In this document: positions 46,560-64,000 of the stretch, in pieces
How the letters are laid out: each line of letters opens with the position of its first letter
Numbering within the stretch: position 1 is the first letter of the stretch
Source: Streptomyces sp. SLBN-118
GTDB lineage: Bacteria > Actinomycetota > Actinomycetes > Streptomycetales > Streptomycetaceae
Direction of reading: 5' to 3'
Assembly (NCBI RefSeq): GCF_006715635.1
Contig: NZ_VFNP01000002.1
Span: 2,108,001-2,172,000, forward strand
DNA length: 64,000 nucleotides
The notes under the pieces: model-generated
What the model was told of the DNA's origin: nothing
Seen by the model: only the letters and a program-made list of their open reading frames with translations
Database searches by the model: none
Made by a program: the position numbers and the translations under genes

Positions 46560-47210
46560 GTGAGAATTTCCGAGTTGAGCCGCCGCAGCGGAGTGGCCAC
46601 TGCGACGATCAAGTACTACCTGCGCGAAGGGCTGCTGCCCCCCGGCCGCGCCACCGCCGCGACCCAGGCGGAGTACGGGGAGTCGCATGTGCAGCGCCTC
46701 CGGCTGATCCGCGCCCTGATCGGGGTGCGGGGTCTGACCGTCAGTGCCGCCAAGGATGTTCTCGACGCCCTCTCCGAGGTCGAGACGGACACCCATGAAC
46801 TGCTTGGGCTCGTCTTCGGGGTCTGGCCCGCATCCGGCGCCAGGGACTCCGCCGCCAAGGATGCCGCCCAGGAGGAGGACTCCGACACCGACACGTCCGA
46901 AGTGAGCGCGCTGCTCGCCGAGATGGGCTGGAAAGTCTCGGAGCACAACCCCGCCCGGCACGTCATAACCCAGACACTGCACACCCTCAGATCACTCGGT
47001 ATGGACTACGACTGGCAGTCCCTTGTTCCCTACGCCCAGCTCGCCGAAAAGACGGCTGCCCTGGATCTCGATCAGCTCCAGGAACCGGCCGAGCCGATCG
47101 AAAAGGCCGAGCGTGCCGTCCTGTTGACGTTCCTCCTCGAACCGGCGCTGCTGGCCCTGCGCCGGCTCGCGCAGGAAGCCGAGTCAACCGTCAGATACCG
47201 CGGCTGTTAG
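46560..47210 (+). CDS. MerR-family transcriptional regulator
   Basis: 216 residues from a GTG. The N-terminal winged HTH is RISELSRRSGVATATIKYYLREGLLPPGRATAATQAEYGESHVQRLRLIRALIG (residues 2-55). An unusually long C-terminal half (~80-216) without a conserved cysteine-metal site suggests a small-molecule ligand rather than metal. It contains an acidic segment (AAQEEDSDTDTSEV). Confidence 0.92.
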   Translation: MRISELSRRSGVATATIKYYLREGLLPPGRATAATQAEYGESHVQRLRLIRALIGVRGLTVSAAKDVLDALSEVETDTHELLGLVFGVWPASGARDSAAKDAAQEEDSDTDTSEVSALLAEMGWKVSEHNPARHVITQTLHTLRSLGMDYDWQSLVPYAQLAEKTAALDLDQLQEPAEPIEKAERAVLLTFLLEPALLALRRLAQEAESTVRYRGC

Positions 47211-47438
47211 CGCTTCCGGCGCCTCGCCTACTTCACCACGCCGCGCCCGCCCCTACGTGAGTGATCAGTACTCACATGGCTGGAAAGTCACGTGCCCCCC
47301 GGGGCCCGGCTCACCCGGCCCGCGGCGGGCGAAGGTGAGTACCCACGACTCAGGCCCGGCGTGCCGCCGGGTGGTCTGCTCGTGAGCTGAACGCAGAGCA
47401 CGGCGAACGCCGTGGACGGCGCACGGGGAGGCAAGAGC

Positions 47439-48473: not shown

Positions 48474-49763
48474 TCAGAGTTCGCGGATGAGCTGGGCCGC
48501 GATCTCCATTCCGGAGGAGTAGCCGGCTTCGTGCGAACCGATCTGGTCCACGCCGTGCCGCTTGGCGTGGAAGTAGGAGCCGCACAGCTTCACGCGGGTT
48601 CCCTCGTTGACGTTGTAGATGTCGTTCTGCATTTCGCGCACATCGACATTGATGATCGGGTGCGTGTACGGGAATTCCGCGATCACCGTCGCCGGGTCGA
48701 CCTCTCCCGGATAGTCGAGGGTGACGAAGTAGTCCTTCTCGGCGGTGAATCCGTGCAGCTTGTTCATGTAGTACGCGACATACGTCTTGGGCTGACCGCC
48801 GACCTCGACCTTGCCGTAGTTCCAGGCCTCCCAGCGGCTCTTGTCCTCGGGGACCACCGAGGGGTCGGTGTGCAGAATGACCTTGGACGAGTTGTACTCC
48901 ACCTTGGAGAGCACCTCGTGCTGGCGCTCGGTGGGGTTGTCGAGCATCGCGAGCGCCTCGTCCGCGTGGGCGCCGACGACCACGTAGTCGAAGGTCTCGC
49001 TGCCCTTGTCCGTGGTCACCGTGACCCCGTCGGCCTCCTGGTGGATGCTACGGACGGCCTCACCCAGGCGGACCTCCGGGCCGATCGCGGCGATCGCCTT
49101 GCGTACGTAGGAGATCGAACCGCCGCCGACGGTCCGCCAGTCGACGTGCTGGCCGCCCAGACCACCCTCGTCGTGGCCCATGAAGAAGGCGATCGCGGTG
49201 CTCGCGGGCATCTCCCAGATCAGCTCGGCGGGAATCGACCAGACCGCGGAGCAGAGCAGGATCACATACGAGTGGCGGAAGGCCTGGCTGTATCCGCCGC
49301 GGTCGAGGTACTCACCGAGGGGAATGTCGGCCCGCTTGCGGACGAAGTCCTTGCGGCCCTCGGTGTGGAAGCGCCTGGCCTCCCGCCAGATGGTCAGGAA
49401 CTCCTCGGAGTAGCGCCCGGCCACCTCCTCCTCGCTGAGGCCGAGCTCCTTCGTGCCGTACTCGAGACCGGAGTCGAGGTCGAAGAAGTTGAAGGCGCCA
49501 CGGTGCTCGACAGCGTCCACGCCCAGCTCGTCGAAGAACTCGCAGAGGTTGGTGTAGGCGGGACGGTTGAAGACGACGAACGCCGTGTCGATGCCGAGGA
49601 TCCTCCCGTTCTCCTCGACCTCGACGGTGTTGGCGTGCCCGCCGAGGCGGTCCTCCCGCTCGAAGACGGTGATCCGGGCGCGGTCGCGCAGGTGATAAGC
49701 GGCGGAAATGCCGGCGACGCCGGCACCGACGACGGCGACTCGTGGGGTGGTGGGCTGCGGCAT
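48474..49763 (-). CDS. FAD-dependent oxidoreductase of the lipid-synthase operon (COG2907/phytoene-desaturase-like)
   Basis: 429 residues. I chose the ATG at 49763 because AAGGA lies 8 bases upstream; ATG 49790 would overlap the PPTase stop (ATGA) and add nine residues. The N-terminal dinucleotide-binding motif VAVVGAGVAGISAAYHL...ITVFEREDRLGGHANTVEV is that of amine-oxidase/phytoene-desaturase flavoproteins. The remainder (IDTAFVVFNRPAYTNLCEFFDELGV, GQHVDWRTVGGGSISYVRKA, C-terminal FAD contact GSYFHAKRHGVDQIGSHEAGYSSGMEIAAQLI) fits the COG2907 group often found with lipid-modifying enzymes. It is the last gene of the operon and probably desaturates or oxidises the assembled lipid. Confidence 0.85.
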   Translation of the reverse strand: MPQPTTPRVAVVGAGVAGISAAYHLRDRARITVFEREDRLGGHANTVEVEENGRILGIDTAFVVFNRPAYTNLCEFFDELGVDAVEHRGAFNFFDLDSGLEYGTKELGLSEEEVAGRYSEEFLTIWREARRFHTEGRKDFVRKRADIPLGEYLDRGGYSQAFRHSYVILLCSAVWSIPAELIWEMPASTAIAFFMGHDEGGLGGQHVDWRTVGGGSISYVRKAIAAIGPEVRLGEAVRSIHQEADGVTVTTDKGSETFDYVVVGAHADEALAMLDNPTERQHEVLSKVEYNSSKVILHTDPSVVPEDKSRWEAWNYGKVEVGGQPKTYVAYYMNKLHGFTAEKDYFVTLDYPGEVDPATVIAEFPYTHPIINVDVREMQNDIYNVNEGTRVKLCGSYFHAKRHGVDQIGSHEAGYSSGMEIAAQLIREL

Positions 49764-49786
49764 GAGCTTGTCCTTCATGGTCGGTC

Positions 49787-50518
49787 TCATACGTACGAGA
49801 GGTCGGAGAGCGAGAGGTCGGAGAGGTCGGTGCGGCGCAGGGCTCCTGGCCGTCCGTTCTCGGTGGCGACGGCCAGGACGTGCCCCGGGCCGGGGTGGAG
49901 CAGGTCGAACCACCAGCGGGCATCGGTCCCCGCCGGCTGCTGCGGGTCGTGCACCGCGATCCGGTCCGCGGTCCGCGGCGCGAAGGAGAAGCCGCCGAGG
50001 CCCCGGGACAAACCGGTGCCCAGCGCCTTGAGATACGCCTCCTTCAGCACCCAGAACTCGCTGACCAGCGCGGCGCGGACGCCGGGAGGGGCGGCGGCGA
50101 GCTCCGCGCGTTCGGCGGGGGCGAGCCGGGGCGCGAGATGGGTCGTCAGCCGGTCCGTGGAGGGTGTGGGGCCCACATCGACGCCGCATCCGCGCCCCCG
50201 GGTGACGACGCAGGCGATGAGGCCTTCGGTGTGGGAGAGGTTGAACCGCACGCCCCCCTCGTCGGGTTCCGGTTCGGGGCGCCCGAAGTCGCCGGTGCGA
50301 AAGCGCCACCGGTCCGGCGGCCGGCCGGTGCGGGCGCTGAGCGCGTAGCGGCACAGCAGCCGCGCACCGAGGTACCGGCGCCGCGCACCCGCGGAGAGCC
50401 GCCGTTCCATCCCGGCGCGTTCCTGCGCCGTGAGCAGCCGCGTCCCGCCGAGCGCGGTGGCGAAGCCGTCCACGGCATGCTCGGGCAGCAGCCACAGGAA
50501 CGTCGGGTCGGATTGCAT
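49787..50518 (-). CDS. Sfp-type 4'-phosphopantetheinyl transferase
   Basis: 243 residues. The three family motifs are present: P1 FGRPEPE, the RFNLSHTEGLIACVV block with P2 GCGVDVG (Mg2+ ligand Asp), and P3 FWVLKEAYLKALGTGL with the catalytic Glu/Lys. It converts apo-ACPs to holo form. In PUFA gene sets the equivalent is PfaE, and here it would load the ACP repeats of the PKS encoded beyond the right edge. It lies 20 bases downstream of an acyl-CoA dehydrogenase gene. The C-terminal tail is irregular (DLSDLSLSDLSYV). Confidence 0.92.
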   Translation of the reverse strand: MQSDPTFLWLLPEHAVDGFATALGGTRLLTAQERAGMERRLSAGARRRYLGARLLCRYALSARTGRPPDRWRFRTGDFGRPEPEPDEGGVRFNLSHTEGLIACVVTRGRGCGVDVGPTPSTDRLTTHLAPRLAPAERAELAAAPPGVRAALVSEFWVLKEAYLKALGTGLSRGLGGFSFAPRTADRIAVHDPQQPAGTDARWWFDLLHPGPGHVLAVATENGRPGALRRTDLSDLSLSDLSYV

Positions 50519-50538
50519 CGGCGTCGGTCCCCGGCCCG

Positions 50539-52332
50539 TCAGCGCCGGGTGGCGGCGTCGTCGACGGTGCGCTCGGCGAGCGGGAACTGCCAGTGCGAGA
50601 ACAGCAGGTTCTCGCGGTGCAGATGGCGCAGTACGCGCATCACCTCGTCGATGACCACCTGGTCCGTGACGGACTCGTACGGGTAGAGGTGCTTGCGCAG
50701 CCGTTCCATCTGGAGCAGCAGCAGGGCGCCGCTGGGCAGCGGGTCCTCCAGCACGTCGTGCGAGTGGACGAAGGTGAGCACGCAGGCCGCGGTGGCGTGG
50801 AGCAGGCAGTACTCCTTGGACAGCTCGAAGAGCTCCGTCGACTGCGCGTACTCGCGGCCCAGTTCGGCTTTGAGCGCCACCGACCGCTCACTCATCGAGG
50901 CGACCCGGCCGAGCAGCTCGTCGGCCACGTCGGCCGCCTTCAGCAGCCAGTCGCGCTCGTTGCCCTTGGCGTCCTCGGCCAGGACACGCAGCCGGCGTAC
51001 CGCGTCGGGTCCGGCAAGCAACGCGTCGTCGAGCCCGCGGCTGAACATCTCCTGCTTCACCGGCTCGTACGGCGGCAGCTCGCTGTCCATGCCGAAGAGG
51101 GTGGCGGCACGTTCGGCCGATGCCTGACGGACCTCCGGGGCGGCGCCGCCCGCGCTGGTCAGCAGACCGCCCAGCTGCTGGCCGATGTTGCGCAGGTTCA
51201 CCACGGTGTTGCCGTCGGCGAAGTTGGCGACCATGAGGTCCCGCAGCATCTTCTGGTGCATGCCGTAGTGCGGGTGGTCCCGCAGGAAGAAGCGCGCTCC
51301 GAGGATCACGTTCAGCTGCGACATGGTCTTCTCGAGCAGCGTCGGCACCAGGTACTTGACCACCGACGACCACACGCTGATCTGCTCGGGCGCCGCCTGC
51401 AGCGCGCGGACCGCGCCGAGGCTCACTGCGTCGGCCAGCATCAGGTCGGCGAAGGACTCGGTCAACTGGCGGCGGCTGTAGGGGACATCGCTGACGGTGT
51501 CGCCCATCAGCACCCGGACCTCGGTGAAGTCCAGTACGAGCCGCAGCGTCGTGTCGGCGGCCGACATCGCGAAACTGCTGATCACGGCGCGCGCCAGCTG
51601 GCCGGACTTGAGCGCGAGCTCCAGGCCCTGGCCCTCGGCTCCGATGCGCGCGGACTCGGGGACGAACGCCCCCTTGAAGCGCAGTCCGCTCAGGTCGAGT
51701 GCGCGCAGCCCGTGCAGCTTCTCGACCGGCAGCTCCTCGACGGTGTCGGCGTCGAGCAGCCACTTGTCCACCATGAGGATGGAGTGGGCCGCGGGGCCGC
51801 CGCGCTTGCCGGTGCGGGCGTGGACGGCCACCTTGTCGCACACGGTGGCGTTGCCGATCAGCCACTTCTCGCCGGTCAGCCGATAGCCGCCGTCGACCTT
51901 CTCGGCGACGACCTCGTTGGCGAGCAGATCGCTGCCGTGCTCGCGCTCGGTCAGTCCCCAGGACAGTCCGCGGCCCCGCTGCATCTCCTCGATCAGGGAG
52001 CGCTTCTGCTCGTCCGTACCCCCCACCCACGCGGGCAGGAAGCCGAGCACGTTGATGACCAGGGCGGTGGCGGTCGTCACGTCGCGACGGGCGACGAGCC
52101 GCATCAGGTTGAAGCCGGTCTCGATGTCGTCGGCCCGGGCGCCGTGTGCGGCGGGCAGGGTGTGGTCGAGCACGCCCCAGCGGCGGAGCTGGTTGACGAA
52201 GGCGTGCGGGTACTCCTGGTTCTCGTCGTGGTCCAGCACCCGGGTGAACGGAATCCGGCTGCCCGAATCGTGCGGGTCGCCGAGGTGCTCCTCCAACTGC
52301 GCGGCCAGCGCGGTCAGGTCGGCCTTGGACAT
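50539..52332 (-). CDS. Acyl-CoA dehydrogenase 1 of the lipid-synthase operon
   Basis: 597 residues, longer than the ~380-400 of ordinary enzymes because of a helical C-terminal extension (~395-597). The FAD/acyl-binding segment WGLTEREHGSDLLANEV (~125-141) and GEKWLIGNATVCD (~154-166) are clear. The loop that normally holds the catalytic Glu-Gly reads ANFADGNTVVNLRNIGQQL, placing Asp373 where glutamate is expected (by eye). It starts 9 bases after the second dehydrogenase gene ends. It probably introduces an alpha,beta double bond into a thioester-bound chain, CoA- or ACP-linked (inference). Confidence 0.85.
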   Translation of the reverse strand: MSKADLTALAAQLEEHLGDPHDSGSRIPFTRVLDHDENQEYPHAFVNQLRRWGVLDHTLPAAHGARADDIETGFNLMRLVARRDVTTATALVINVLGFLPAWVGGTDEQKRSLIEEMQRGRGLSWGLTEREHGSDLLANEVVAEKVDGGYRLTGEKWLIGNATVCDKVAVHARTGKRGGPAAHSILMVDKWLLDADTVEELPVEKLHGLRALDLSGLRFKGAFVPESARIGAEGQGLELALKSGQLARAVISSFAMSAADTTLRLVLDFTEVRVLMGDTVSDVPYSRRQLTESFADLMLADAVSLGAVRALQAAPEQISVWSSVVKYLVPTLLEKTMSQLNVILGARFFLRDHPHYGMHQKMLRDLMVANFADGNTVVNLRNIGQQLGGLLTSAGGAAPEVRQASAERAATLFGMDSELPPYEPVKQEMFSRGLDDALLAGPDAVRRLRVLAEDAKGNERDWLLKAADVADELLGRVASMSERSVALKAELGREYAQSTELFELSKEYCLLHATAACVLTFVHSHDVLEDPLPSGALLLLQMERLRKHLYPYESVTDQVVIDEVMRVLRHLHRENLLFSHWQFPLAERTVDDAATRR

Positions 52333-52341
52333 GAAGAACTC

Positions 52342-54048
52342 CTATCGGGTGGTGGCCAGTCGGACGGGCAGGGCGGAGAACAGCCGGCCGGTCTCCCGCA
52401 GCGCCACGACGGCGTCGAGCGCCGGCGTCAGTACGGCCCCGTGGTGGCGGGGGTCCACGCCGTCGGCCCGCGCGAGCAGATAGCCGAGCGTCGCGCCCAG
52501 CCAGCCGGCGGAGCCGGGCTGCGTGCCGTACAGCGAGCGGTCCCGGTTGGCCCACCACAGATGGACGCAGGACGCGGCGGCGTGCAGCCAGGCATACCGC
52601 TCGGCGGCGTCGACCAGCGCGTTCGGGTCGGCGCCGCGCTCACGTGCGGCCCGGGTCAGATCGCCGAGCCCGGCCACGGCCCGGGCAAGCTGCCCGACCA
52701 GCTCGACGACGGGGGCCGCGCTCTCGTCGTCGCCCAGGGCGTCGGCCACGTCGGTGGCGACGTCCGGGAGTCCGGCGAGCACGGGGTCGACGCCCCGGGC
52801 GAACATGTCGAGCCTGGCGGGTTCGTACGCGGGCAGATCGGCGTCGAGGCCGTAGACGGCGGCCACGGCCGCCGGGTCCGGCTCCGCCGCGCCCTCCGTC
52901 AGCGTGGGCAACTGGCCCGCGAAGGAACGGAGGTTGGCCAGGGTGCTCGCGTCGATGACCCGGACGACCGCCGAGTCCCGCTGAAGCTTCTGGAACAGGC
53001 CCGCCCCCCGCTCGCCCTCACGCAGGACCGAGCGAGTGGCGAGCACTGTGCCGCAGCGGCGGATGAGCTCGTCGGTAGCCTCCGCCACTACGTGTTTGGC
53101 GGCCAGCGCCCAGACGCTGAAAGCCTCGGGCACCACATGGACGCCGCGGGCCGCGGTCAGCGCCACCGTGTCGGCGGCCAGCAACGCCGCGGCGGCGACG
53201 GCCAGTTCACGCCGGGGGTGCGGCGATTCGGTGAGGACGGTACGGCCGATCCTGCGGGTCGTGGCGAAGTCCAGCGCGAGCCGTACCGCGGTGTCCGCGA
53301 TGCCCAGGCTGCCCGCCATGCTCATCAGCCGGACGGCCTGCTGGGCCTTGACGGCCGCCTCCAGCCCCTCGCCCTCCTTGCCGACCAGTGCCTTCTCGGG
53401 CACCGTCAGGCCGTTGAAACGCAAGCAGGCCATGTCGATGCCGCGCATACCGCCGGTTCGGACCGCGGGAGTGCGCTCCAGCTGCCCGTCGGGGACGTCC
53501 GCAAGATCGAGGAGGACCGCAGAGAAGGCGCCGGGGCCGCGCTCGCCGGTGCGGGCGATCACGTACACCGCCTCGCAGCTCATACCGAGGCCGACCATCC
53601 ACTTCTCGCCGGTCAGTTCGCCTTCCGGGCTCAGCCGGACCTCGTTGGTGAGCAGATCGCTGCCGTGCTCCGCCTCGGTGAGCGCGAAGGCCACGGCCCC
53701 GCCGCGGGTCAGGATCTCGGCGGCCCGGCTCTGCTGCTCCGGTGTGCCGTGCAGTTGCAGACAGGTCGCGGCGATGATGCTGAACATCGTGCCGGGCATG
53801 ATGTTGACGTCCCGGCGGGCCGCCGACCGTACGAGGGTCAGGCTGCGGTCGAAGGACTGCAGCTCACCGCCCCACTCCTTGGGCAGGTAGTTCAGGTGGA
53901 ACCCGGCCCGGCGCAGCTCGTCGCAGAGCGCGGTGGGGAACTCGTCGCGCTCGTCACGCTCGACGGCTGCGGCGAAGCCGTACGGATTGGTGTTGTCGCC
54001 GGGGTCGCCGAGCAGCGCCTCCAGCTCGTCCGGCGTGAGCAGGGTCAT
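52342..54048 (-). CDS. Acyl-CoA dehydrogenase 2 of the lipid-synthase operon
   Basis: 568 residues. The ATG at 54048 overlaps the enoyl-reductase stop (ATGA). Related to dehydrogenase 1 with the same extended layout: FALTEAEHGSDLLTNEVRL (~121-139), GEKWMVGLGMSCEAVYVIARTGERG, GMRGIDMACLRFNGLTVP. At the active-site loop it reads VVRVIDASTLANLRS, so Asp366 replaces the usual catalytic glutamate, as in its neighbour. The two proteins may form a heteromer, as other paired FadE proteins do (inference). Confidence 0.85.
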   Translation of the reverse strand: MTLLTPDELEALLGDPGDNTNPYGFAAAVERDERDEFPTALCDELRRAGFHLNYLPKEWGGELQSFDRSLTLVRSAARRDVNIMPGTMFSIIAATCLQLHGTPEQQSRAAEILTRGGAVAFALTEAEHGSDLLTNEVRLSPEGELTGEKWMVGLGMSCEAVYVIARTGERGPGAFSAVLLDLADVPDGQLERTPAVRTGGMRGIDMACLRFNGLTVPEKALVGKEGEGLEAAVKAQQAVRLMSMAGSLGIADTAVRLALDFATTRRIGRTVLTESPHPRRELAVAAAALLAADTVALTAARGVHVVPEAFSVWALAAKHVVAEATDELIRRCGTVLATRSVLREGERGAGLFQKLQRDSAVVRVIDASTLANLRSFAGQLPTLTEGAAEPDPAAVAAVYGLDADLPAYEPARLDMFARGVDPVLAGLPDVATDVADALGDDESAAPVVELVGQLARAVAGLGDLTRAARERGADPNALVDAAERYAWLHAAASCVHLWWANRDRSLYGTQPGSAGWLGATLGYLLARADGVDPRHHGAVLTPALDAVVALRETGRLFSALPVRLATTR

Positions 54049-55679
54049 CGCATACCCGCCGGGGAACCGTGGGCCGGGGTCTCCAGCGGCACCGGACGGT
54101 AGTCGCCCGCCGTGGAGGGGATGTGCACACCGGCGCTGCGCAGTTGCGCGAGCCGGGTGTGGAAAGCGGCACCGAGCATCAGGTGGTGGGCCACGTCGGC
54201 GACCCGCCGGTTGCCCGGGGTCTTCAGATAGCTGCCGGTCACCCAGTCGTTGAAGCTGCCCATCGCCGGGCCGCACCAGATCTGGTAGTCCATGGCGCGG
54301 TCCTTGTCGCCGACGACCGCCCAGCGCGAGGACATGCCCAGATACCAGCGGAAGATCAGCGCCATCTTGCGCTTGGGGTTGCCTGCCGCGCGGGTGAGCT
54401 GCTCCGGGTCGCGGCGCTGGAAGTAGCCGACGCACTCCTGCCAGACGTCCTCCAGCGGCCGCCGGAAGATCTGCTGCTCCAGCTTGGCCCGGTCGGGCGC
54501 GGGGATCGCATCGATGCCGTCGTAGGCCTGGTAGATCTGGTACAGCCGACGGGCCCGCATCGGGAAGAGGGTGCCCTTCTTCAGGACCTGGAGGTCCACC
54601 CCCATCTCGAACATGTCGGCGGCCGGGGCCATGTCGACATCGGCGATGCCCGCCTCGGCGAGCATCGCCTTGGACTCGGTGGACGCCCCGGACTCCAGGC
54701 AGGACTGGTTGACCGAGCCGGTGACGACATACGCGGCGCCCATCGCGAAGGTCGCGGCCACCGCGACCGGTGTGCCGAGGCCGCCGCCGGCCCCGACCCT
54801 GATCGGCACGGCGTAGCGGTGCTCGCGCTGGACGGTGTCACGCAGCCGCAGGATCGTCGGCAGCAGCGCGGGCAGCGGGCGCCGGTCGGTGTGGCCGCCC
54901 GAGTCCGCCTCGACGGTGATGTCGTCGGCCAGCGGCACATGGTGGGCAAGTGCCGCCTGGTCGTGGGTGATCAGGCCCAGCTCGAGCAGGGAGCTGACCA
55001 GGGTGGCCGGGGCCGGGCGCATGAAGCGCTCGGCCGTCTCGGCCCGGGAGATCTTGGCGATCAGCCGGTTCTCGGAGACCACCCGGCCGTCCTGGTCGGT
55101 GCGCAGTCCGGCCAGCCGGTAGCGCACGACATGCGGGGTGAGGTCCATGAAGGCGGACGCCTCCACACACCGCACACCGTGCCGCAGGAACAGCTCCACC
55201 GCCTCCCGCTCGAGCCGGTCCTCGCTGGGGCTGTGGATCAGATTGACGGCGTACGGAAGTCCCGGGATCTCGGCGGCGAACCGGCCGAGCGCCTTCTCGA
55301 TCGTCTCGGGGAGCAGCCCGGCCGCGCCGTACGAGGCGAGGAAGCCCTCACGGGCCAGGGCGATCACCATGTCGGCCGAGGCGATCCCGCCCGCCATGGC
55401 GCCCGCCATGTACGGCTGGCGCACCCGGTGTGCGGCCAGGAAGGCGGCCGAACCAAGCCGCTGCGGGGGCAGCGGCTGGGCGGCGGCGAGCAGCGGCAGC
55501 CCCGTCGAGGAGGCGCTGCCGCCGGTCACCGAACCGCCGGAGACGGCACCGATCCCGTCCGGGGTGACGACGATGAAACAGGGCTGGTCCAGGTCTGCCA
55601 GCGCGTTGTAGATCCCGGCCGGGTCGGTGCTGGGGTACCGCTCTCCGGTCCACCGGAGAGGGGTGTCGCGAATATCCAT
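54045..55679 (-). CDS. pfaD: PfaD-type trans-acting enoyl reductase (FMN)
   Basis: 544 residues. 2-nitropropane-dioxygenase/TIM-barrel enoyl reductase of the PfaD family: QPYMAGAMAGGIASADMVIALAREGFLASYGAAGLLPETIE, GVRCVEASAFMDLTPHVVRYRLAGL, ADDITVEADSGGHTDRRPL, IRVGAGGGLGTPVAVAATFAMGAAYVVTGSVNQSCLESG and the C-terminal PKRKMALIFRWYLGMSSRWA. FMN-phosphate-binding Gly-rich turns are in the GAGGGLGTP region. It reduces selected enoyl intermediates of the iterative synthase; skipping reduction leaves double bonds. It lies 28 bases downstream of the KS-CLF-AT-DH-DH gene. Confidence 0.93.
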   Translation of the reverse strand: MDIRDTPLRWTGERYPSTDPAGIYNALADLDQPCFIVVTPDGIGAVSGGSVTGGSASSTGLPLLAAAQPLPPQRLGSAAFLAAHRVRQPYMAGAMAGGIASADMVIALAREGFLASYGAAGLLPETIEKALGRFAAEIPGLPYAVNLIHSPSEDRLEREAVELFLRHGVRCVEASAFMDLTPHVVRYRLAGLRTDQDGRVVSENRLIAKISRAETAERFMRPAPATLVSSLLELGLITHDQAALAHHVPLADDITVEADSGGHTDRRPLPALLPTILRLRDTVQREHRYAVPIRVGAGGGLGTPVAVAATFAMGAAYVVTGSVNQSCLESGASTESKAMLAEAGIADVDMAPAADMFEMGVDLQVLKKGTLFPMRARRLYQIYQAYDGIDAIPAPDRAKLEQQIFRRPLEDVWQECVGYFQRRDPEQLTRAAGNPKRKMALIFRWYLGMSSRWAVVGDKDRAMDYQIWCGPAMGSFNDWVTGSYLKTPGNRRVADVAHHLMLGAAFHTRLAQLRSAGVHIPSTAGDYRPVPLETPAHGSPAGMR

Positions 55680-55707
55680 GGGGAAACGAAGCTCCTTGGG
55701 CTGAGCG

Positions 55708-58700
55708 TCAGGCGCCGGCGGGACGGACCTCGATGGCCACGTCGGTGAGTTCGTAGATGCGCAGGCCCGGCTTCGACAGATCCGCGTCGGCGATGATCAG
55801 CAGGCGGTCCGCCTCGCGCCGGACCTCCTTGATGTGCACGTCGAACTGCAGCTCACGGTCGTGGCGCAGGATCTGGCCGCGGTACTTCCAGGCCATCTCC
55901 ACATCGGTGGCCATCGCGAACCGGGGCTGCTCCATCCCGTCGGCGAGGTTCTGGTCGATCACGAAGAGGCGCATGGCCTGGAGGATCGCCTCGACGCCGA
56001 GCGAGCCGGGCATCACCGGGTCGCGGTGGAAGTGGCAGTCGAAGTACCACTCGTCGGGGCGGATCTCGCGGTACCCGTGCAGATAGCCGTGTCCGTGCCG
56101 GCCGCCCTTGTCGACGACATCGACCCGGTCCACGAGCGCGAACTGGCCGCCGGGAAGGTGCAGATGGCCGCCCGTCGGGTCGGTGAAGGCGGGTGCGCCC
56201 TCGGGGAGTTCGATCCGGCGGATCCGGTCGGCGGGGATCTGCTCGGTCTCGATCCAGGGGGCGACGTACTTCCCGTTGTCCAGGCCCACCTGGTTGGCGA
56301 GGGCCGCGTCGCTGAAGTAGCCGAACAGCGACTCGCCGGTGTAGAAGACCTCGCCGTCGGCGGAGAGTTCGTAGCTGAAGTTCTGCAGGACCGCACCGGA
56401 GACGGCGCTGGTCATCAGCAGCTTGGAGTGGTGGCGGATGGTCTTGCCGCGCAGGTCGATGTCCTTGACCAGGGTCGCCCGGCCGTCCAGGTTGCGGATC
56501 GCGTACTGCTCCTCGGGCCGGGTGAGGGTGGCGCCGAGGTAGTAGCCGAGGAAGATCGCCGCCTGGAGCGAACTCTCCATGTAGACCGCGTTCGGCATGT
56601 GCGGGTGGGAGTTCTGCTCGTAGTACCAGGCGTCGGCCGGGGAGTCGTACTCCGTGACCATCTCCGAGCCGGGGCTCAGATCGCCGCGGGTGCCCTTGAG
56701 GGACATGACGCGGTCGACGAACTGGAAGGCCCCGTTGGGGATGTACGGCGCGCGGCTGTTGCGGTAGACCTCGAACTCCGGTCCCATCGCCATGTCCAGC
56801 CGGCCCTTGGCGGCGTGCGCCAGGTGCAGCTCGTTGATCATCGCCGCCTCGCCGTCACGGTTGCGGCGGCCCAGGAACTTCGGCACACCGCCGGTCTCGG
56901 GACGGTAGGGCGAGCCCTCCTTCTCGCGGACCTGGAGGCCGAGGCCCTTCATCTTGATGACCGGCTTGTCGCCCAGGTAGATCAGCACGTCGGCGATCAC
57001 CGTGGCGCGCGGCAGGAGCGTGAGCTCCATGACCTCGACCTCGTAGCGGATCTCCTCGTGCTGCTGGGTGATCTGGCCGCGGACCTGGACCTCGATCGGG
57101 ACGTCGGTCACGCACTGGAAGCGCGCGTCCGGCAGCGTCAGGTGCATGCCCTGGTGCATCAGGTAGATCTGCAGCAGCTGCACCGCGCCCTCGGCCACCA
57201 GCGAGCCGGCCAGCACGTGGTCGTCCGGGAAGTGGCAGGTGAAGTACCAGGCGTCGGGCGTCAGCTTCTTGATCGCGCTGAGTGTGCCGAGCCCGCGCGG
57301 ACCGGCCTTGCGGTCGATGGTGACCTCGTCGACCATCCGCAGCTTGGCGTCGGGCAGCCGGATCGCCGGGTTGATGCCCGGGTCCTGGGCATGGTCGGGG
57401 CCGAAGACCTCACCGATGCGGCCCTGGGCGAGCAGCTCCAGGTCGCCGGAGGTCAGATGGTTCTTCTCGGTGTACGCGAGCGGTTTGAACCAGCCCTTGG
57501 TGAGCTTCGCCCGCTCGGCCTTCTCCTTCTCGGTGATGACGACACCGAGGGGGGTGTCGAGCTCCGCCTGGCTGAAGAACCCGGCGCAGGCGTCGTGGAG
57601 TTCGAGGATCAGCTCACCGTCGGCGTAGCACTTGTAGCTGAAGAAGAAGAGCGTGGTGTCGCCCTGGTGGACGAAACGGTCGATGGAGATGTCGTAGCGC
57701 AGGGTCTGGCCGACCTGCGGCAGGTTGCCACGGAAGATCAGCGTGCTGTCGAGCAGCCGGTAGACGCGCTCGCCCTTGTTGCGGAAGTCGATGCCGAGGT
57801 AGCTGACGAGCAGCAGGTCGCACTGCCCGGCCTCGACGGTCACGGCCGGCGGCACGCCGCCGTCCACGGCGTACCAGGCGTCCTCGGGGACGTCGTACTC
57901 GGTGGTGATGGTGGCGGGCTTGAACTCGCCGGTCGTACCGCTGAGTTCGGTGACCCGGGTGACGAAGTGGTAGGGAGGTGCGGGCAGCCGGACGCGCTTG
58001 GCGTATCCGTCGATGACGCCGAACTCCGGGCCGAAGACCTTGGCGACGGAGCCGACGGCGAACTCCAGCAGATCCGCCTCGTCCCAGATCACACCCTCCT
58101 TGACCTCGCGGTCCGCGGGTGCGGCGGGCGGGGGCACGGGCGTGCCGGGACCGGACGCGACGGGCTCCGCGGGGCGGGCGGGAGCGGCCGGGGGCAGGGC
58201 CGGGCGTACGGCCTGGTCGGACACGGCCGCCGTCAGAGCCGGCTGCTGTGCGAGGTCCGCGGTACGCGGGGCGGGTGCGGGTGCCGGGGCGGTGGCCGGG
58301 TCGAGGAGCGCCTCCATCCGGCTGAGCGTGGCGCCCTGGAGGATGCGCTGGGTCTCCATCACCACCGAGTGGGTGGCGACCATCTGCCGGCGGATCTCGC
58401 GCACCAGATCGGCGGCAGGGTCCCCGGAGGCGGCGGCCGGGGCAGGGGCGGCCCCGGTCGCGGCAGCCGGTGTCGGCGTGGAGGCAGCCGGTGCGGCGAC
58501 CGGCAGGGCGACCGGCGCCGAGGGCACCGGGCCTGCGGCAGCGGGCTCGGGTGCCCCGGGCGCGGGCGGCGCCCACGGCAGGAAGGAGATCGGGGTGCCG
58601 TCGAAGGCGATGACCTCCGCGTCAGCGAGAGTCGGGTCGGCAGGCATGACGGAGTCCTCCGGCGGTACGGACGGGACGGGCGCGGGCGATACGGGAACAG

Positions 58701-61700
58701 GAGCAGGGGCTGGGACGGGGGCGGACGCGGCGGGTGCCGCCGCGGCGGCCACGGGCCGGGGTGCTTGAACCGGGCCGGCCGCGGGAGGAGTTGCGGCGAT
58801 CCCCCGGGCGACGCGCGCCGGTACGGGGTCACCGCCGCCCACCCGGAACCGGGAGGCCCGGGCGGACCTGGCCGGGGCCCGGTCCGCGTCGGTACCCAGC
58901 AGCGGCGTCAGGTCCAGCTGAACACCGTGGCTGACCAGACGGGCCACGAGCTGGGCGACGGACTTCGTGGCCGGCGCCCCGCGCCGGTCGACCGGCAGCG
59001 CGACATGGGCCGCGTCGCCGAGCGTGTCGTGGATCCAGCGCGAGCAGGTCGCGCTGGGGCCGACCTCCAGGAAGTAACGGAATCCGCGGTCGTGCGCGCC
59101 CTGGATGAGGCGCGGGAAGTCGATCGGGGAGCGCAGAGTGTGGGCGATGCGCCGGGCGATCTCCTTGCGGTCCAGGACGGGCAGCGCCTCGTAGTCGTAG
59201 GCGCTGAACAGCTCCAGATCGCCGAACGAGCCGGTGGGGTAGTCGTTCAGACCGGCCAGGCCGCCGACTTCGGCGTCGACGACCGGGCAGTGCATGACCG
59301 CGTTGACGGGAGAGCGCGCCGCGGGGCAGCCCAGTTCCTTGACCAGTGCCTTGCACTGGGCCGGGTCTCCGGCGATCACGAGCTCGTTGGGGGTGTTGAT
59401 GTGCGTGAGGTGGACCCGGTCGTAGCGCGTCAGCGCGTCCCGCACGGTGTCCGCGTCGGTCAGCAGCACATGGCTGGCCCACACCTCCCCGTCGGGGACG
59501 GACCCGGGCAGGTCCCAGTACGCGCGCACCGTCCGCTTCGCCCCGCACAGCCGGTCCTTGAAGACAGGCGTATCGCTGATCACCTCGTCGCGGCGGCTCT
59601 CGGGCAGCCAGCCCCGGGTGGCGAAGAGCATGCTCGACTCACCCAGGCTGTAGCCGAATCCGCCGTGTGCCCGGACGCCGAGCACATCCCGGACCAGGTC
59701 GGTGTAGAGGATCGCGAAGCTGGTGCCGGTGGCGAGCATGAACGGGATGTCCTCGCCCAGTTCGGCCTCCAGGCCCATCAGTTCGCGCCGCCCGGGAGTG
59801 ACCTGGGTGCGCGGGTAGAGAGCGCGGGAACGAAGGTGCAGTGCAGGCTCGTCGGCCTGGCTCTCGAACCGGTCGAGCAGCCCCGGGAAGGCACGGAAGA
59901 AGTCCCGGCCCAGCCCCGGGTAGGAGTTGAACGCGCCCGGGTAGACCAGGGCGACCTTGCCGTCGGGTCCGATGGGCCGGGCGGTGAAGAAGCTGCCGGC
60001 CGGAGTGGCCCACTCGGCGCCCTCGGCGTTCACGCCGGGCAGATCCCTTGCGGCGAGCTCCAGTTGGGCCCGCAGCTCGCCGCGGTCGCGGCCCACGAAG
60101 ACCGCGCGCAGCTTCCTGCCGACGAGCTCCTTGGCCGCTTCGCGGGCCAGCGCGTACGGGTCGGCGACTTCCAGCAGTTCCAGATGCTGCTCGATCGAGG
60201 CGTGCAGGGCGTCGAAGGAGTCGGCGGCGAGGGGCAGTACGACGGGGCCGCCCGCGCGCTGCCAGTCGCTCGGCGCGACCGTGCCGCGGGTGGCGTCGGC
60301 GGAGAGCACGAGGTGGCCGTGGGCTCCGGAGGCCCCGATGAAGCTGAGCGCCGCGTACCGCCGAGCGTCCTTGGTCTCGCGAAGCCACGGGCGTGACGCG
60401 TCCGGGACGTACAGCGAGGAGGCGGCGAAGTCGTCGGCCAGCTCACCGGCGGGGCGGCTCCAGCCGCTGGTGCCGGGGAGATAGCCGTGGTGCAGACAGA
60501 GCACGGACCGGATGAGTCCGGCCATGGTCGCCGCACAGCCCGCGTCGCCGATCTGCGCCTTGGCGCTGCCGAGGGCAACACTGCCGCCGTCCGCCGGGTA
60601 GACCCGGGCCAGTCCGGCGATCTCGGCCCGGTCCTGGATGTCGGTGCCGCCGGCGTGGGCCTCCAGATAGCCGATGTCCGCGGCGGTGACGCCCGCGGCG
60701 GTCAGTGCTTCTTCGGCCGCGGAGGCCAGGGTCGCCGCGTCGGCCTCGGGCACCGCGCCGTCCACCGGTGCGGCATGCCGGATGGCGACCGAGTCCAGGC
60801 GCGCGTACACCGTCGACTCCCACTCGCCGGGCCGGGTGACGACGACGGCGCCCGCGCCCTCGCCGATACGGCGGCCGCGGCTGCCCTCGCCGAAGGTCAG
60901 CCCCGCCTCCGCGACCACATCGGGCCGCAGCAGCAGGTTCTCCGCCGAGCCCGCCAGGTCGACCGCTCCGACCAGGACCGCCTCGATGCTGCGGTCGAGC
61001 AGCAGCAGCCGTGCGACCTCCAGGGCCTCGGCGGTGCCCGAACCGTCGGACGAGACGGTGAAGGACGGTCCGGTCAGGTTCCACAGCGAGGAGATACGGC
61101 TCGCCATCACGTTGCCGATGAAGCTGAGGACCTCGTTGGCGACGATCGGGTCGACCACCGCGTCGCGGCCGACCGCCGTCACGGCGGCCAGCTGCTCCTC
61201 GTCGATCGCGACTCCGGCCCGCTCGAACTCCTCACGTACGAAGGCCCCGAGCGTGCGGCGGGTCAGCCGCAGATGCGTCATGGGCTCGATCTCCATGGCC
61301 ACCACCACCGCGACCCGGCGCGGTTCGGGAGCCGTCCGGCCCTGGGCGACGGCGCGGCTGAAGCCGGCGTCGTGCAGGGCCTCGTCGGCCACCTTGCTGG
61401 CGAGCGCGTGCTGGAGGTTGTACGTCCGCAGGTCCGACGGCGGGATCTTGAGGTCCACGGGGTCGATGCCGAGCCCGTCCACGAAGGCGCCGTGCGGGAG
61501 CGCGTCGGGCGAGACGCCGGTGCCGTGCTCCAGGGAGCCGCCGCGGGTCTGGTCGAGGCCGCGCCAGCGGCGTTCGGGCAGCGGGCCCAGTGCGTCGCTG
61601 CCCTCGTGGACGGCACGTTCGAAGGCTTCGAGGGAGTCGAAGGAGCCGAAGTGCGCGCCCAGGCCCACCACATCGAGGGCGGGCACGGTGGCTGCGGCCG

Positions 61701-63072
61701 CCTCGGTGACGGCCTCGGCGACCGGCTCGGAGAGCACCACATGCGCGTTGGTGCCGCCGAAGCCGAAGGCGGAGACCGCTCCGCGGCGCGGGTCGTCCCC
61801 GCGCGGCCACTCCCGGCCCGTGCGGACCAGCGTGTCCTCGCCGACACGTCCGTCCTTGGAGGCGACCGGCTTCGAGACGCCGATGGTCGGCGGGATGTGG
61901 CCGTTGCCCATGGCCAGGATGACCTTGAGCATGCTGCTGAGCCCGGCCACGGTGAGGAGGTGGCCGATGTTGCCCTTGACCGAGCCGATCAGCGGGACCT
62001 TGCCCGCGTCACCGAAGAACGTGGCGACGGAGTCGGCCTCGGTCGAGTCGCCGATGGGGGTGCCGGTGGCGTGGCACTCGAGGTAGTCGATGGCAGTCGG
62101 GTCGATGCCGGCCTGCTGGTACGCCAGCTCGTACGACTGGAGTTGGCCGCCGCCCTGCGGGACCAGCAGATGGCGTCCGCTGCCGTCGTTCGTCAGGCCG
62201 ATGCCGTCGACGACCGCGTGGATCCGGTCGCCGTCGCGCACCGCGTCGGCCAGCCGCTTGACGGCGACCATGCCGGCGCCCTGGCCGGTGAGGATGCCGC
62301 CGGACCTGTCGTCGAAGGGTTGGCTGAAACCGTCGCGGGGGTAGGCCTGAAGGTCCGAGAAGGAGAGGTGGATCAGCGTCGGGTCCGGTGCGCAGACGCC
62401 GCCGGCCAGCACCAGGTCGGCCTGGCCCGCGGCGAGGTGGTCGCAGGCCAGCTTGAGCGCGTAGAGGGCGGACGAGCAGGCGGCGTCGAGCGCGTAGCGG
62501 GGGCCGCCGAGGCCCAGCGCGGTGGCGGCGACCGACGACGGGGAGCCGCTGACCCGCAGGTCCTCCGGCTTCAGGGCGTCGCGGTCGATACGGCGGTCCT
62601 GCCCGGCGAGCGCGCCGAGCGCCGGGTGTCCGGCCCGGCGCAGCCCCTCCAGCACCGCCTCCTGGACCAGCGGCACGCTGACCTCGGCGGAAGTGGGCGT
62701 GGGAAAGGAGTAGTTGCCCAGGATCAGGCCGGTGCGGGCGAGGACCTCGGGGCGTTCCGCGTGTCCGCTGTCGCGCAGCGCCTCCCTGGCGACATGCAGG
62801 GACCAGTGGAAGATCCGGTCGAGCCCCGCGAGATGTCCGGGGTCCAGGAGATAGCCGGACGGGTCGAAGTCGAAGTCGGTGATGAAGCCGCCCCGGCTGC
62901 AGTAGATGCCGTGCTGGGGGTCGGTGTCCCGGGCGTCGAGGGCGGGGCCGAAGACCTCTTCGCCCCCTTCCTTGCGGCTGTCCGCCCCGGTACGGAGGTT
63001 CTGCCAGAACTCGGCAGGTGTCTCCGCTCCTGGAAACAGGCAGGAGAGGCCAACGATGGCGTACTTGCTCAT
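55708..63072 (-). CDS. pfaC: Iterative PUFA-synthase-like PKS: KS-CLF-AT-DH-DH (PfaC/Pfa3-like)
   Basis: 2454 residues from the ATG at 63072 (MSKYAIVGLSCLFPG). KS (~1-450): Cys199 in DAACSSALYALKLA, His334 in HATGTPIGDS, His371 in KGNIGHL. Chain-length-factor-like KS (~465-925): Gly677 replaces the cysteine in TVSSDGSGTAEALEVA, and the last His is Asp (KAQIGDAG). AT (~1035-1385): GYSLGE with Ser1142. A Pro/Ala-rich linker (~1400-1655) contains a helix EIRRQMVATHSVVMETQRIL. Two double-hot-dog dehydratases follow: His1947 in YFTCHFPDDHVLAGSL and His2347 in YFDCHFHRDPVMPGSL. The order resembles myxobacterial Pfa3 without its acyltransferase tail. It extends and dehydrates the growing chain, with ACPs supplied in trans. 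Confidence 0.93.
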   Translation of the reverse strand: MSKYAIVGLSCLFPGAETPAEFWQNLRTGADSRKEGGEEVFGPALDARDTDPQHGIYCSRGGFITDFDFDPSGYLLDPGHLAGLDRIFHWSLHVAREALRDSGHAERPEVLARTGLILGNYSFPTPTSAEVSVPLVQEAVLEGLRRAGHPALGALAGQDRRIDRDALKPEDLRVSGSPSSVAATALGLGGPRYALDAACSSALYALKLACDHLAAGQADLVLAGGVCAPDPTLIHLSFSDLQAYPRDGFSQPFDDRSGGILTGQGAGMVAVKRLADAVRDGDRIHAVVDGIGLTNDGSGRHLLVPQGGGQLQSYELAYQQAGIDPTAIDYLECHATGTPIGDSTEADSVATFFGDAGKVPLIGSVKGNIGHLLTVAGLSSMLKVILAMGNGHIPPTIGVSKPVASKDGRVGEDTLVRTGREWPRGDDPRRGAVSAFGFGGTNAHVVLSEPVAEAVTEAAAATVPALDVVGLGAHFGSFDSLEAFERAVHEGSDALGPLPERRWRGLDQTRGGSLEHGTGVSPDALPHGAFVDGLGIDPVDLKIPPSDLRTYNLQHALASKVADEALHDAGFSRAVAQGRTAPEPRRVAVVVAMEIEPMTHLRLTRRTLGAFVREEFERAGVAIDEEQLAAVTAVGRDAVVDPIVANEVLSFIGNVMASRISSLWNLTGPSFTVSSDGSGTAEALEVARLLLLDRSIEAVLVGAVDLAGSAENLLLRPDVVAEAGLTFGEGSRGRRIGEGAGAVVVTRPGEWESTVYARLDSVAIRHAAPVDGAVPEADAATLASAAEEALTAAGVTAADIGYLEAHAGGTDIQDRAEIAGLARVYPADGGSVALGSAKAQIGDAGCAATMAGLIRSVLCLHHGYLPGTSGWSRPAGELADDFAASSLYVPDASRPWLRETKDARRYAALSFIGASGAHGHLVLSADATRGTVAPSDWQRAGGPVVLPLAADSFDALHASIEQHLELLEVADPYALAREAAKELVGRKLRAVFVGRDRGELRAQLELAARDLPGVNAEGAEWATPAGSFFTARPIGPDGKVALVYPGAFNSYPGLGRDFFRAFPGLLDRFESQADEPALHLRSRALYPRTQVTPGRRELMGLEAELGEDIPFMLATGTSFAILYTDLVRDVLGVRAHGGFGYSLGESSMLFATRGWLPESRRDEVISDTPVFKDRLCGAKRTVRAYWDLPGSVPDGEVWASHVLLTDADTVRDALTRYDRVHLTHINTPNELVIAGDPAQCKALVKELGCPAARSPVNAVMHCPVVDAEVGGLAGLNDYPTGSFGDLELFSAYDYEALPVLDRKEIARRIAHTLRSPIDFPRLIQGAHDRGFRYFLEVGPSATCSRWIHDTLGDAAHVALPVDRRGAPATKSVAQLVARLVSHGVQLDLTPLLGTDADRAPARSARASRFRVGGGDPVPARVARGIAATPPAAGPVQAPRPVAAAAAPAASAPVPAPAPVPVSPAPVPSVPPEDSVMPADPTLADAEVIAFDGTPISFLPWAPPAPGAPEPAAAGPVPSAPVALPVAAPAASTPTPAAATGAAPAPAAASGDPAADLVREIRRQMVATHSVVMETQRILQGATLSRMEALLDPATAPAPAPAPRTADLAQQPALTAAVSDQAVRPALPPAAPARPAEPVASGPGTPVPPPAAPADREVKEGVIWDEADLLEFAVGSVAKVFGPEFGVIDGYAKRVRLPAPPYHFVTRVTELSGTTGEFKPATITTEYDVPEDAWYAVDGGVPPAVTVEAGQCDLLLVSYLGIDFRNKGERVYRLLDSTLIFRGNLPQVGQTLRYDISIDRFVHQGDTTLFFFSYKCYADGELILELHDACAGFFSQAELDTPLGVVITEKEKAERAKLTKGWFKPLAYTEKNHLTSGDLELLAQGRIGEVFGPDHAQDPGINPAIRLPDAKLRMVDEVTIDRKAGPRGLGTLSAIKKLTPDAWYFTCHFPDDHVLAGSLVAEGAVQLLQIYLMHQGMHLTLPDARFQCVTDVPIEVQVRGQITQQHEEIRYEVEVMELTLLPRATVIADVLIYLGDKPVIKMKGLGLQVREKEGSPYRPETGGVPKFLGRRNRDGEAAMINELHLAHAAKGRLDMAMGPEFEVYRNSRAPYIPNGAFQFVDRVMSLKGTRGDLSPGSEMVTEYDSPADAWYYEQNSHPHMPNAVYMESSLQAAIFLGYYLGATLTRPEEQYAIRNLDGRATLVKDIDLRGKTIRHHSKLLMTSAVSGAVLQNFSYELSADGEVFYTGESLFGYFSDAALANQVGLDNGKYVAPWIETEQIPADRIRRIELPEGAPAFTDPTGGHLHLPGGQFALVDRVDVVDKGGRHGHGYLHGYREIRPDEWYFDCHFHRDPVMPGSLGVEAILQAMRLFVIDQNLADGMEQPRFAMATDVEMAWKYRGQILRHDRELQFDVHIKEVRREADRLLIIADADLSKPGLRIYELTDVAIEVRPAGA

Positions 63073-63179
63073 GAGAGCTCTGGGGTCCCTTCTGAGGGGC
63101 GGCCGGCCCGGACGGCTGGGGCACACAGTGAGCGCCGTCCGGGCCGACCCGATCGCTTGCGTCAGCTACGAAGCGTCAA

Positions 63180-64000
63180 TCAGCTGCTGATGAACTTGGC
63201 CGCCAACTGCGGGGCCGAGACCACGGATACGCCGTCGAAGCGGGTGAGCACCCGTCCGTCGGGGGCGCAGGCGGTGATGGTGAGCGAGGCGCCGATGCTG
63301 CTGCCCGACGGTGCGGGCTCCACCACGATCAGGAACGGCTCGCCGTCCGGCAGCGGGTGGTGCAGATCGGCCCGGCCCACGGAGAGGGGCAGCCCCGCGG
63401 TGCCGCGGAACAGCCTCACCCACACAAGGCCCGCCTGGAGCAGCAGGTCCGCCGTACCCGGCGCGAAGCGGGAGCCGCCGAAGGCGCCCCCGGCAGGCCG
63501 GAGTTCGGGCAGTTCGCACTCGAGGACCAGCCGGGACTCGTCCTCGGCCAGCACCCGGCGCACACCGCGCAGGGCAGGTCCGTGGAAGAGGGTCCCGTCG
63601 CTGTAGAAGCCGGCGGCGTCCCTTCCCGAGCCGAGCGCGGGCAGTCCGACGACGGTGGCGCCGGCGAGCGACGTGCCCGGGGTGACGACGGCCGCGTAGC
63701 GCGGTCGTGCGACTCCCTCCGCGTCGGTCGCACGGATGGCCACCTTGACGGCGTCACCGGCCGGGGTCATCGCGAGGCTGACCTGCTCGGGCTGCGTACC
63801 GTCGAAGACGATGCCCTTGTGGACCGAGAAGTCACTGACCTGCGCCACCTCGGTGGCACCGGCCCGCTCGACCGCGCCGATCGCCCAGCCGAGCGCGACG
63901 GCCGCGGGCAGCACCGGCGCATCGCCGATCACATGGTCGGTGAGGATCGGGTCGCCCGCCAGCTCGCCGAGCCGTCGCTCGACGGTGACGGTGTCCGTGG
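63180..64000 (-). CDS. PKS C-terminal dehydratase domain (PfaA-like protein, cut by the window edge)
   Basis: 272 residues visible; the frame runs off the right edge, so the start is outside. The visible part is a PS-DH-type double hot-dog: ILTDHVIGDAPVLPAAVALGWAIGAV holds the catalytic His, FHGPALRGVRRVLAED begins the second half, and TADLLLQAGLVW gives the Asp/Gln pair. In PUFA synthases this domain ends the PfaA/Pfa2 protein (KS-AT-ACP repeats-KR-DH), which is the component otherwise missing here. The gap to the next gene is 107 bases. Confidence 0.88.
   Translation of the reverse strand, partial: TDTVTVERRLGELAGDPILTDHVIGDAPVLPAAVALGWAIGAVERAGATEVAQVSDFSVHKGIVFDGTQPEQVSLAMTPAGDAVKVAIRATDAEGVARPRYAAVVTPGTSLAGATVVGLPALGSGRDAAGFYSDGTLFHGPALRGVRRVLAEDESRLVLECELPELRPAGGAFGGSRFAPGTADLLLQAGLVWVRLFRGTAGLPLSVGRADLHHPLPDGEPFLIVVEPAPSGSSIGASLTITACAPDGRVLTRFDGVSVVSAPQLAAKFISS

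Follow-up and report, generated by a model that had tools for sequence, protein, structure and literature searches.

We analyzed a 64,000-nucleotide stretch of the 7.79-Mb genome of Streptomyces sp. SLBN-118 (hereafter the window; G000:C2:2108001-2172000), whose right-hand part carries, on the minus strand, a cassette that joins genes of a polyunsaturated fatty acid (PUFA) synthase to two genes of the acyl-CoA dehydrogenase (ACAD) family. Reading from position 64000 to 48474, the 3' end of pfaA is followed by pfaC, pfaD, ACAD1, ACAD2, a phosphopantetheinyl transferase (PPTase) gene, and a gene for a FAD-dependent oxidoreductase (Table 1). The original prediction for this DNA had named these seven genes as one minus-strand array; all are present, with domain scores far above chance, and the pfaC product has exactly the length claimed. 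The gene coordinates also bear out the tight, operon-like spacing that it described, with 107 bases between pfaA and pfaC, 28 between pfaC and pfaD, a 4-base ATGA overlap of pfaD and ACAD1, and gaps of 9, 20, and 8 bases between ACAD1 and ACAD2, ACAD2 and the PPTase gene, and the PPTase and FAD enzyme genes, respectively. The gene list was correct, but it overlooked a discrete acyl carrier protein (ACP), a DUF3291-like protein, a major facilitator superfamily (MFS) exporter, and a MerR-family regulator, and it left the action of the ACADs unexplained. A named near relative is Streptomyces sp. NBC_01481 (97% identity in ACAD2).

The original prediction had proposed to check whether an ordinary modular polyketide synthase (PKS) lies to the right of position 64000. 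This was rejected, as the gene there encodes PfaA, which scores 2430.8 bits against TIGR02813 (cut-off 1010). Its domain order is KS-MAT-ACP x4-KR-PS-DH (ketosynthase, malonyl-type acyltransferase, ACPs, ketoreductase, and a PKS-type dehydratase), and three of the four tandem ACPs are nearly identical to one another. In the pfaC product, the active-site cysteine is kept in the KS and replaced in the chain length factor (CLF), the acyltransferase (AT) is PfaB-like, and the two FabA-like dehydratase (DH) units score 264.6 bits. The KS, AT, ACP, and KR motifs are intact. The locus thus holds every part that we used to recognize a PUFA synthase, namely, a PfaA with KS, MAT, tandem ACPs, KR, and DH, a KS-CLF with a PfaB-like AT and two FabA-like DH domains, PfaD, and a PPTase, and pfaA, pfaC, and pfaD together are a complete PUFA-synthase-type secondary lipid synthase.

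Table 1. Genes of the cassette and its surroundings (window positions, unless a locus name is given)
Feature	Position	Strand	Remarks
pfaA, 3' end	63180..64000	-	Continues to about window-equivalent 70349 (L002:180-7349); whole protein 2389 aa
pfaC (pfaBC fusion), KS-CLF-AT-DH-DH, 2454 aa	55708..63072	-	
pfaD, trans enoyl reductase, 544 aa	54045..55679	-	TIGR02814, 649.9 bits (cut-off 449)
ACAD1, acyl-CoA dehydrogenase family, 568 aa	52342..54048	-	Own clade in tree
ACAD2, acyl-CoA dehydrogenase family, 597 aa	50539..52332	-	
Sfp-type PPTase, 243 aa	49787..50518	-	ACPS PF01648, 49.3 bits
FAD-dependent oxidoreductase, amine-oxidase superfamily, 434 aa	48474..49778	-	Nearest solved relative LkcE
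SARP (Streptomyces antibiotic regulatory protein)-type regulator, convergent	47412..48389	+	BTAD, 121.5 bits
MerR-family regulator	46560..47210	+	Homologues in 33/53 named loci
DUF3291-like protein, predicted antibiotic biosynthesis monooxygenase (ABM; dimeric alpha+beta barrel) fold, 137 aa	46061..46474	-	
Discrete ACP, 88 aa, just upstream of pfaA, outside the window	L002:7718-7984	-	PF00550, 47.1 bits

The domain order of pfaA, pfaC, and pfaD is that of Pfa synthases with a fused pfaBC, and the KS-CLF-AT-DH2 arrangement, with pfaD closing the cluster at its 3' end, matches type C as described in the relevant part of a survey of secondary lipid synthases (PMC3098273). Compared with those synthases, the ACAD pair, the discrete ACP, the FAD enzyme, the ABM-fold protein, the MFS exporter, and the MerR regulator are extra here, and a word search of the main text of that survey did not find "dehydrogenase." PUFA-type synthases also serve specialized metabolism in hybrid clusters of PKS, nonribosomal peptide synthetase (NRPS), and PUFA genes, such as those of zeamine, megapolipeptin, and chitinimine, with Streptomyces examples in clade V, according to the portion of PMC13291983 drawn on here. 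In contrast to these hybrids, no NRPS is seen in the cassette, and in the main text of that paper the searched word occurs only for lactate dehydrogenase. As far as the word search of the main texts of both surveys shows, neither reports an ACAD in such clusters. Among the papers listed in searches of the open literature, none deals with this gene combination, subscription papers lying outside the search.

We examined how regularly the ACADs accompany the synthase, since their co-occurrence with pfaC and pfaD was another point on which the original prediction could be checked. Searching 150 related genomes for the PfaD family, we found 24 above the cut-off and examined all 27 neighborhoods that passed it besides the window's own. 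Both ACADs lie 3' of pfaD in 8 of these 27, the contig of one more (L042) ends directly after pfaD, and no ACAD was found by tblastn within the stretches examined in the other 18. Some PfaD genes among those 18 belong to other PKS types, and two of the stretches (L051 and L058) are short after pfaD; in these two genomes, a whole-genome search at an E value of 1e-30, with at most eight candidates scored per genome, listed no ACAD2-like match. A scan of named genomes with an ACAD2 alignment yielded 71 loci, and in 53 of these (L061-L110 and L115-L117) the ACAD2 identity is 41% or more. We give counts on these 53 named loci, as the 69 clustered loci overlap, with some genomes entering by two routes; the 10-kb flanks hide the upstream side in most of the 53. 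In 47 of the 53, pfaD and ACAD1 lie upstream of ACAD2. The remaining six comprise four cut by contig ends (L072, L076, L079, and L090), a second ACAD2 copy (L070) on the contig that also bears the main cluster (L073) close by, and a rearranged locus (L109) in which pfaA follows ACAD2 and ACAD2 but not ACAD1 lies within the stretch examined. The hosts include Streptomyces, Kitasatospora, Wenjunlia, Sphaerisporangium, Catenulispora, Lentzea, Kutzneria, Actinocrispum, and Solirubrobacter.

Phylogenetic analysis of PfaA places the ACAD-positive clusters in one clade (SH-aLRT 93), in which the unlabelled row L193 is the window's own gene repeated; the clade adjoins L057 and L058, whose genomes are without such an ACAD. 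Within the genus of the window, 23 of the 295 sampled genomes carry ACAD2 of this type, with a bimodal score distribution (at least 917 bits, the next class reaching at most 440 bits); the count is of this marker gene alone, and pfaD adjacency was checked for seven of the 23. Among 296 genomes sampled across the Actinomycetota, 14 have a PfaA match at an E value of 1e-100, 4 of them above the family cut-off, and the PUFA-type ACAD2 was found in the window's genome only. The cassette is thus rare at the phylum scale, as only the window's own genome among the 296 had both. The conservation of the gene pair shows that the two ACADs are not incidental to the cluster.

Several loci depart from the common arrangement. 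Two ACAD2-type genes lie about 15 to 18 kb apart on the same contig in Streptomyces coffeae (L070 and L073) and likewise at G439:C1:1230856 and 1245639. The pfaD frame is broken in G027 (L059:9281-10711), which is either real or a sequencing error. An apparent fusion of ACAD1 and ACAD2 in L081 was rejected, as the long frame spans a run of N, an assembly gap. In two related genomes (L142:679-3609 and L095:11783-14717), the place after ACAD2 that the PPTase gene occupies in other branches is taken by a polyketide-cyclase-like gene and two genes for proteins of about 410 aa.

Three Streptomyces plasmids carry ACAD2 at 55 to 73% identity. On NZ_CP107856 and NZ_CP030864, the gene order is ACP, thioesterase, pfaA, pfaC, pfaD, two ACADs, FAD oxidoreductase, MerR, DUF3291, and MFS; a PPTase gene comes next on NZ_CP107856, and none is present in the NZ_CP030864 stretch. 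As nearly the whole set sits on two Streptomyces plasmids, the cassette moves. In the two annotated plasmid regions, no NRPS or modular PKS was found inside the cassette. After the cassette, NZ_CP107856 has another ACAD and then a type II PKS, and NZ_CP030864 (Streptomyces globosus), the stretch of which starts at the ACP and covers one side of the cassette, has regulators, an IS3 transposase, and type I-E CRISPR genes.

All 10 ACAD clusters that were examined on the upstream side of pfaA (L002, L132, L134, L136, L138, L139, L141, L109, and the two plasmid clusters) have the discrete ACP there, at 53 to 100% identity. No match to it was found beside any of five PUFA clusters without these ACADs, each with at least 8.9 kb of upstream sequence (L034, L043, L050, L052, and L058; L049 and L057 were left out of this count). 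Four of these five genomes are without an ACAD2-like match, and the fifth (G048) has one of 31% identity on another contig. The best NCBIfam match of the discrete ACP is the N-terminal ACP of Pks13, which we take to be loaded by the fatty acyl-AMP ligase (FAAL) FadD32. Its sequence identity is 24 to 38% to 14 ACPs of FAAL/ACAD loci, 21 to 23% to the PfaA ACPs, and 32% to the ACP of a neighboring PKS. A thioesterase gene lies between the discrete ACP and pfaA in 6 of the 10 clusters (L109, L136, L138, L139, L194, and L195).

The closest parallels to the ACAD pair were found in FAAL-ACAD-ACAD-ACP modules. Of 12 loci elsewhere in the genus with tandem ACAD pairs of this kin, 9 have a FAAL within the stretch examined, and none was found there in L179, L184, and L185; an ACP-sized gene stands beside most such pairs, and NRPS-sized genes are near several. 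Among 11 single ACADs, a FAAL was seen only beside L111, L118, L124, L186, and L188. Two of these come from distant phyla and combine FAAL and ACAD with a discrete ACP, one cyanobacterial (L111, Oscillatoria) and one from Tumebacillus flagellatus (L118:8161-17587), where the unit adjoins a single PKS module. Like the cassette, the FAAL modules combine two ACADs that are about 33% identical to each other with a discrete ACP, perhaps of similar type. They differ in that the cassette has a PUFA synthase instead of a FAAL, with its ACP gene at the opposite end of the operon. Both in the window and in the stretch of the S. globosus plasmid, the cassette was found to have no adenylate-forming gene; AMP ligases are found in the neighboring PKS region only. 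The comparison was made on loci of the same gene order and not on the named lipopeptide proteins, of which Tar5/Tar6 of taromycin and MlcH/MlcI of malacidin are described, in a passage of PMC9113097, as introducing double bonds at delta-2 and delta-4, the chain probably being bound to the FAAL or an ACP. RthI/RthJ of rotihibin are such an ACAD pair in the account given in part of PMC8552735. According to PMC9113097, the mechanism of such ACADs had not been the subject of any reported study as of 2021.

In a tree of 69 ACADs, ACAD1 and ACAD2 each form one clade (100 each) and group together (93), while the FAAL first and second enzymes group with two single ACADs (91); one row of the second enzymes (L181) is short, at 390 aa. 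In approximately unbiased (AU) tests, a clade of ACAD1 with the FAAL second enzymes was rejected (p 1.35e-07), and one of ACAD2 with the FAAL first enzymes was not (p 0.136). A simple transplant of the lipopeptide ACAD pair was rejected, as neither the trees nor the AU test support one-to-one orthology. At what we take to be the position of the catalytic glutamate of medium-chain ACADs, aspartate is found in ACAD1 (17/17), ACAD2 (17/18), and the FAAL first enzymes (12/12), histidine in the FAAL second enzymes (10/11), and glutamate in the single enzymes (7/11). The base residues are thus D/D in the cassette against mostly D/H in FAAL modules. These results suggest that ACAD1 and ACAD2 may work like the lipopeptide pair, yet they are not the same pair.

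We therefore consider, with confidence poised about midway, that a PUFA-synthase-type cassette has gained a carrier-bound desaturation module, in which the PUFA synthase would occupy the place of the FAAL. From the observed gene content, conservation, and kinship, we infer the following chemistry. On the four tandem ACPs, PfaA, PfaC, and PfaD would assemble a long unsaturated chain, which the PfaB-like AT of pfaC would move to the discrete ACP; PfaB is a terminal long-chain acyltransferase according to part of PMC12895367. ACAD1 and ACAD2 would then dehydrogenate the acyl-S-ACP beside the thioester, giving the 2-ene and next the 2,4-diene or an equivalent, so that the new double bonds would join the PUFA-type ones in a conjugated polyenoyl chain. 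The FAD enzyme would add further desaturation or shift double bonds, the ABM-fold protein would oxidize or cleave the polyene, and the product would leave the carrier, by means of the thioesterase where there is one, and be exported. The original prediction had suggested that the extra flavoenzymes add desaturations or oxidative tailoring; desaturation of a carrier-bound chain gains support here through the kinship of the ACADs with the FAAL modules.

Several points weigh against this proposal. The enzyme actions and the product given above are predictions, and the original prediction's caution that the product is not readable from the sequence still holds. The PUFA pair and the FAAL pair probably are not one-to-one orthologues, as each groups separately, and with histidine in 10 of the 11 FAAL second enzymes the function of one pair cannot simply be carried over to the other. 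The sequence of the discrete ACP is divergent and short, and as the neighboring PKS ACP falls within the range of identities of the FAAL-locus ACPs, the ACP evidence alone is modest. No thioesterase gene was found between the discrete ACP and pfaA in the window's genome, L132, L134, or L141, among the 10 clusters. The role given to the FAD enzyme rests on distant similarity, the DUF3291-like protein scores 16.7 bits against PF13826 (cut-off 25) and just under the DUF3291 cut-off too, and the window's clade has its MFS gene upstream, with a regulator in between, the product being only 33% identical to the MFS of the plasmid cassettes.

Bacterial Pfa-like clusters are widespread, and few have known products. 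The cassette recurs as a defined set of about a dozen genes, in part on plasmids, and is small enough for transfer to a laboratory host. If the proposal holds, it would give PUFA synthases a second, post-assembly desaturation stage and would offer a discrete carrier for assays of the ACAD pairs, which have been little studied.

More tentatively, and with rather less confidence than doubt, the cassette could be a two-stage, two-carrier lipid factory that arose when a PUFA synthase took over a lipopeptide-type module for carrier-bound desaturation. It would set methylene-interrupted double bonds while the chain is on the tandem ACPs, add conjugating ones once the chain is on the discrete ACP, and make a new class of secreted products, either conjugated polyene lipids or polyene diacids, with plasmids spreading it among actinobacteria; the window's clade would have lost the thioesterase and would hand the chain to the PKS/aminobenzoate neighbor to form a hybrid. 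A related explanation, which we think unlikely, takes the discrete ACP as a hand-off carrier in general, from which an alpha,beta-unsaturated acyl-ACP is passed to another pathway as in lipopeptide initiation, the recipient in the window's clade being the neighboring PKS/aminobenzoate-type cluster. That cluster, a PKS/ligase/phzE-like region, lies directly upstream of the cassette in the window's genome, G066, and G027, at 58 to 90% identity, and these three genomes are without the thioesterase found in six other clusters. However, no match to the region above 45% identity lies beside the cassette in G033, G010, G011, and G095, for which reason the region was also rejected as part of the cassette core, and L141 lacks the thioesterase as well, though without that neighbor. 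On NZ_CP030864, moreover, the side of the cassette that the stretch covers shows the regulators, IS element, and CRISPR genes mentioned above and no partner of the NRPS or PKS kind.

The base residues bear on another explanation, namely, that the ACAD pair makes something other than a conjugated diene, such as an isolated double bond, a triple bond, or an oxidation as the first step of chain shortening. As aspartate replaces, in both ACADs, the glutamate of 7/11 single kin enzymes and presumably of medium-chain ACADs, the regiochemistry may differ. LipB of friulimicin makes a delta-cis-3 bond, as stated in the same passage of PMC9113097. The FAAL first enzymes share the aspartate, however, and such enzymes are proposed there to act at delta-2, an analogy in which the published sequences were not compared, and we regard this explanation as quite improbable. 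An ordinary membrane PUFA cluster of the eicosapentaenoic/docosahexaenoic acid type with ACADs as chance-adjacent beta-oxidation genes is very hard to credit: PUFA synthases do have these core genes, and a Pfa-type cluster of S. coelicolor (type L) was once suggested for PUFAs, though not demonstrated, in the part of PMC3098273 that treats it, but the tight co-occurrence of the ACADs within one PfaA clade, their kinship with carrier-dependent lipopeptide enzymes, and the efflux-type MFS and ABM-fold protein of many relatives do not point to a membrane lipid.

The large cluster directly upstream of the cassette (L002:10547-20000, L003, and L173; G000:C2 about 2181500-2215500) occurs beside it in G066 and G027 only, of six other clusters compared. 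Its genes encode an MFS protein, a TetR regulator, a 1711-aa PKS of the order KS-AT-DH-KR-ACP, AMP ligases, a KASIII-like enzyme, an amidohydrolase, and a short-chain dehydrogenase/reductase (SDR), and further a phzE-like chorismate enzyme, a class II 3-deoxy-D-arabino-heptulosonate 7-phosphate (DAHP) synthase, a PPTase, AT-ACP, KS, and KR-DH proteins, a cytochrome P450, and an MMPL protein. We take it to resemble benzoxazole-type, nataxazole-like pathways. The thioesterase-less clusters are those of all three genomes with this neighbor, plus L141.

Among the 53 named loci, the accessory genes were counted as follows, with the PPTase found in 42, the MFS exporter in 36, the DUF3291 protein in 35, and the FAD enzyme and the MerR regulator in 33 each. 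The convergent SARP gene pointed out in the original prediction is present, but matches of at least 54% identity are confined to the window's near relatives, with weaker ones (29 to 36%) in L076, L081, L084, L105, and L132; it was rejected as a general feature of the cassette, in contrast to MerR with its 33 loci. A homologue of the FAD enzyme lies just upstream of the discrete ACP instead in L109, L139, and L141, so that branches without a downstream copy need not have lost the gene. The enzyme may be like LkcE, a phytoene desaturase, or a polyenoic fatty acid isomerase; a literature search found no flavoprotein fatty acid isomerases.

The DUF3291-like protein is predicted to have an ABM fold, and searches of PDB sequences with a DUF3291 relative and with a profile gave no usable match. 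A PF13826-type protein occurs in 9 of the 53 named loci, none of them among the 35 with the DUF3291 protein. A sister branch has a true af470-type monooxygenase of this family (L140:3849-4316, 144.7 bits) together with an aldehyde dehydrogenase. The same combination is known from the limocrocin (lim) cluster, as the Fma-ABM-like Lim18 and the aldehyde dehydrogenase Lim16, and was proposed there for polyene cleavage (PMC11727611). An MFS exporter and a thioesterase, too, occur in the cassette family. In contrast, the lim polyene comes from discrete ketosynthases, whereas the cassette has a PUFA synthase with ACADs, and the window protein is only DUF3291-like. In the L140 branch, a methylaspartate mutase gene adjoins the PUFA cassette (L140:2424-10846), perhaps for an amino acid conjugate.

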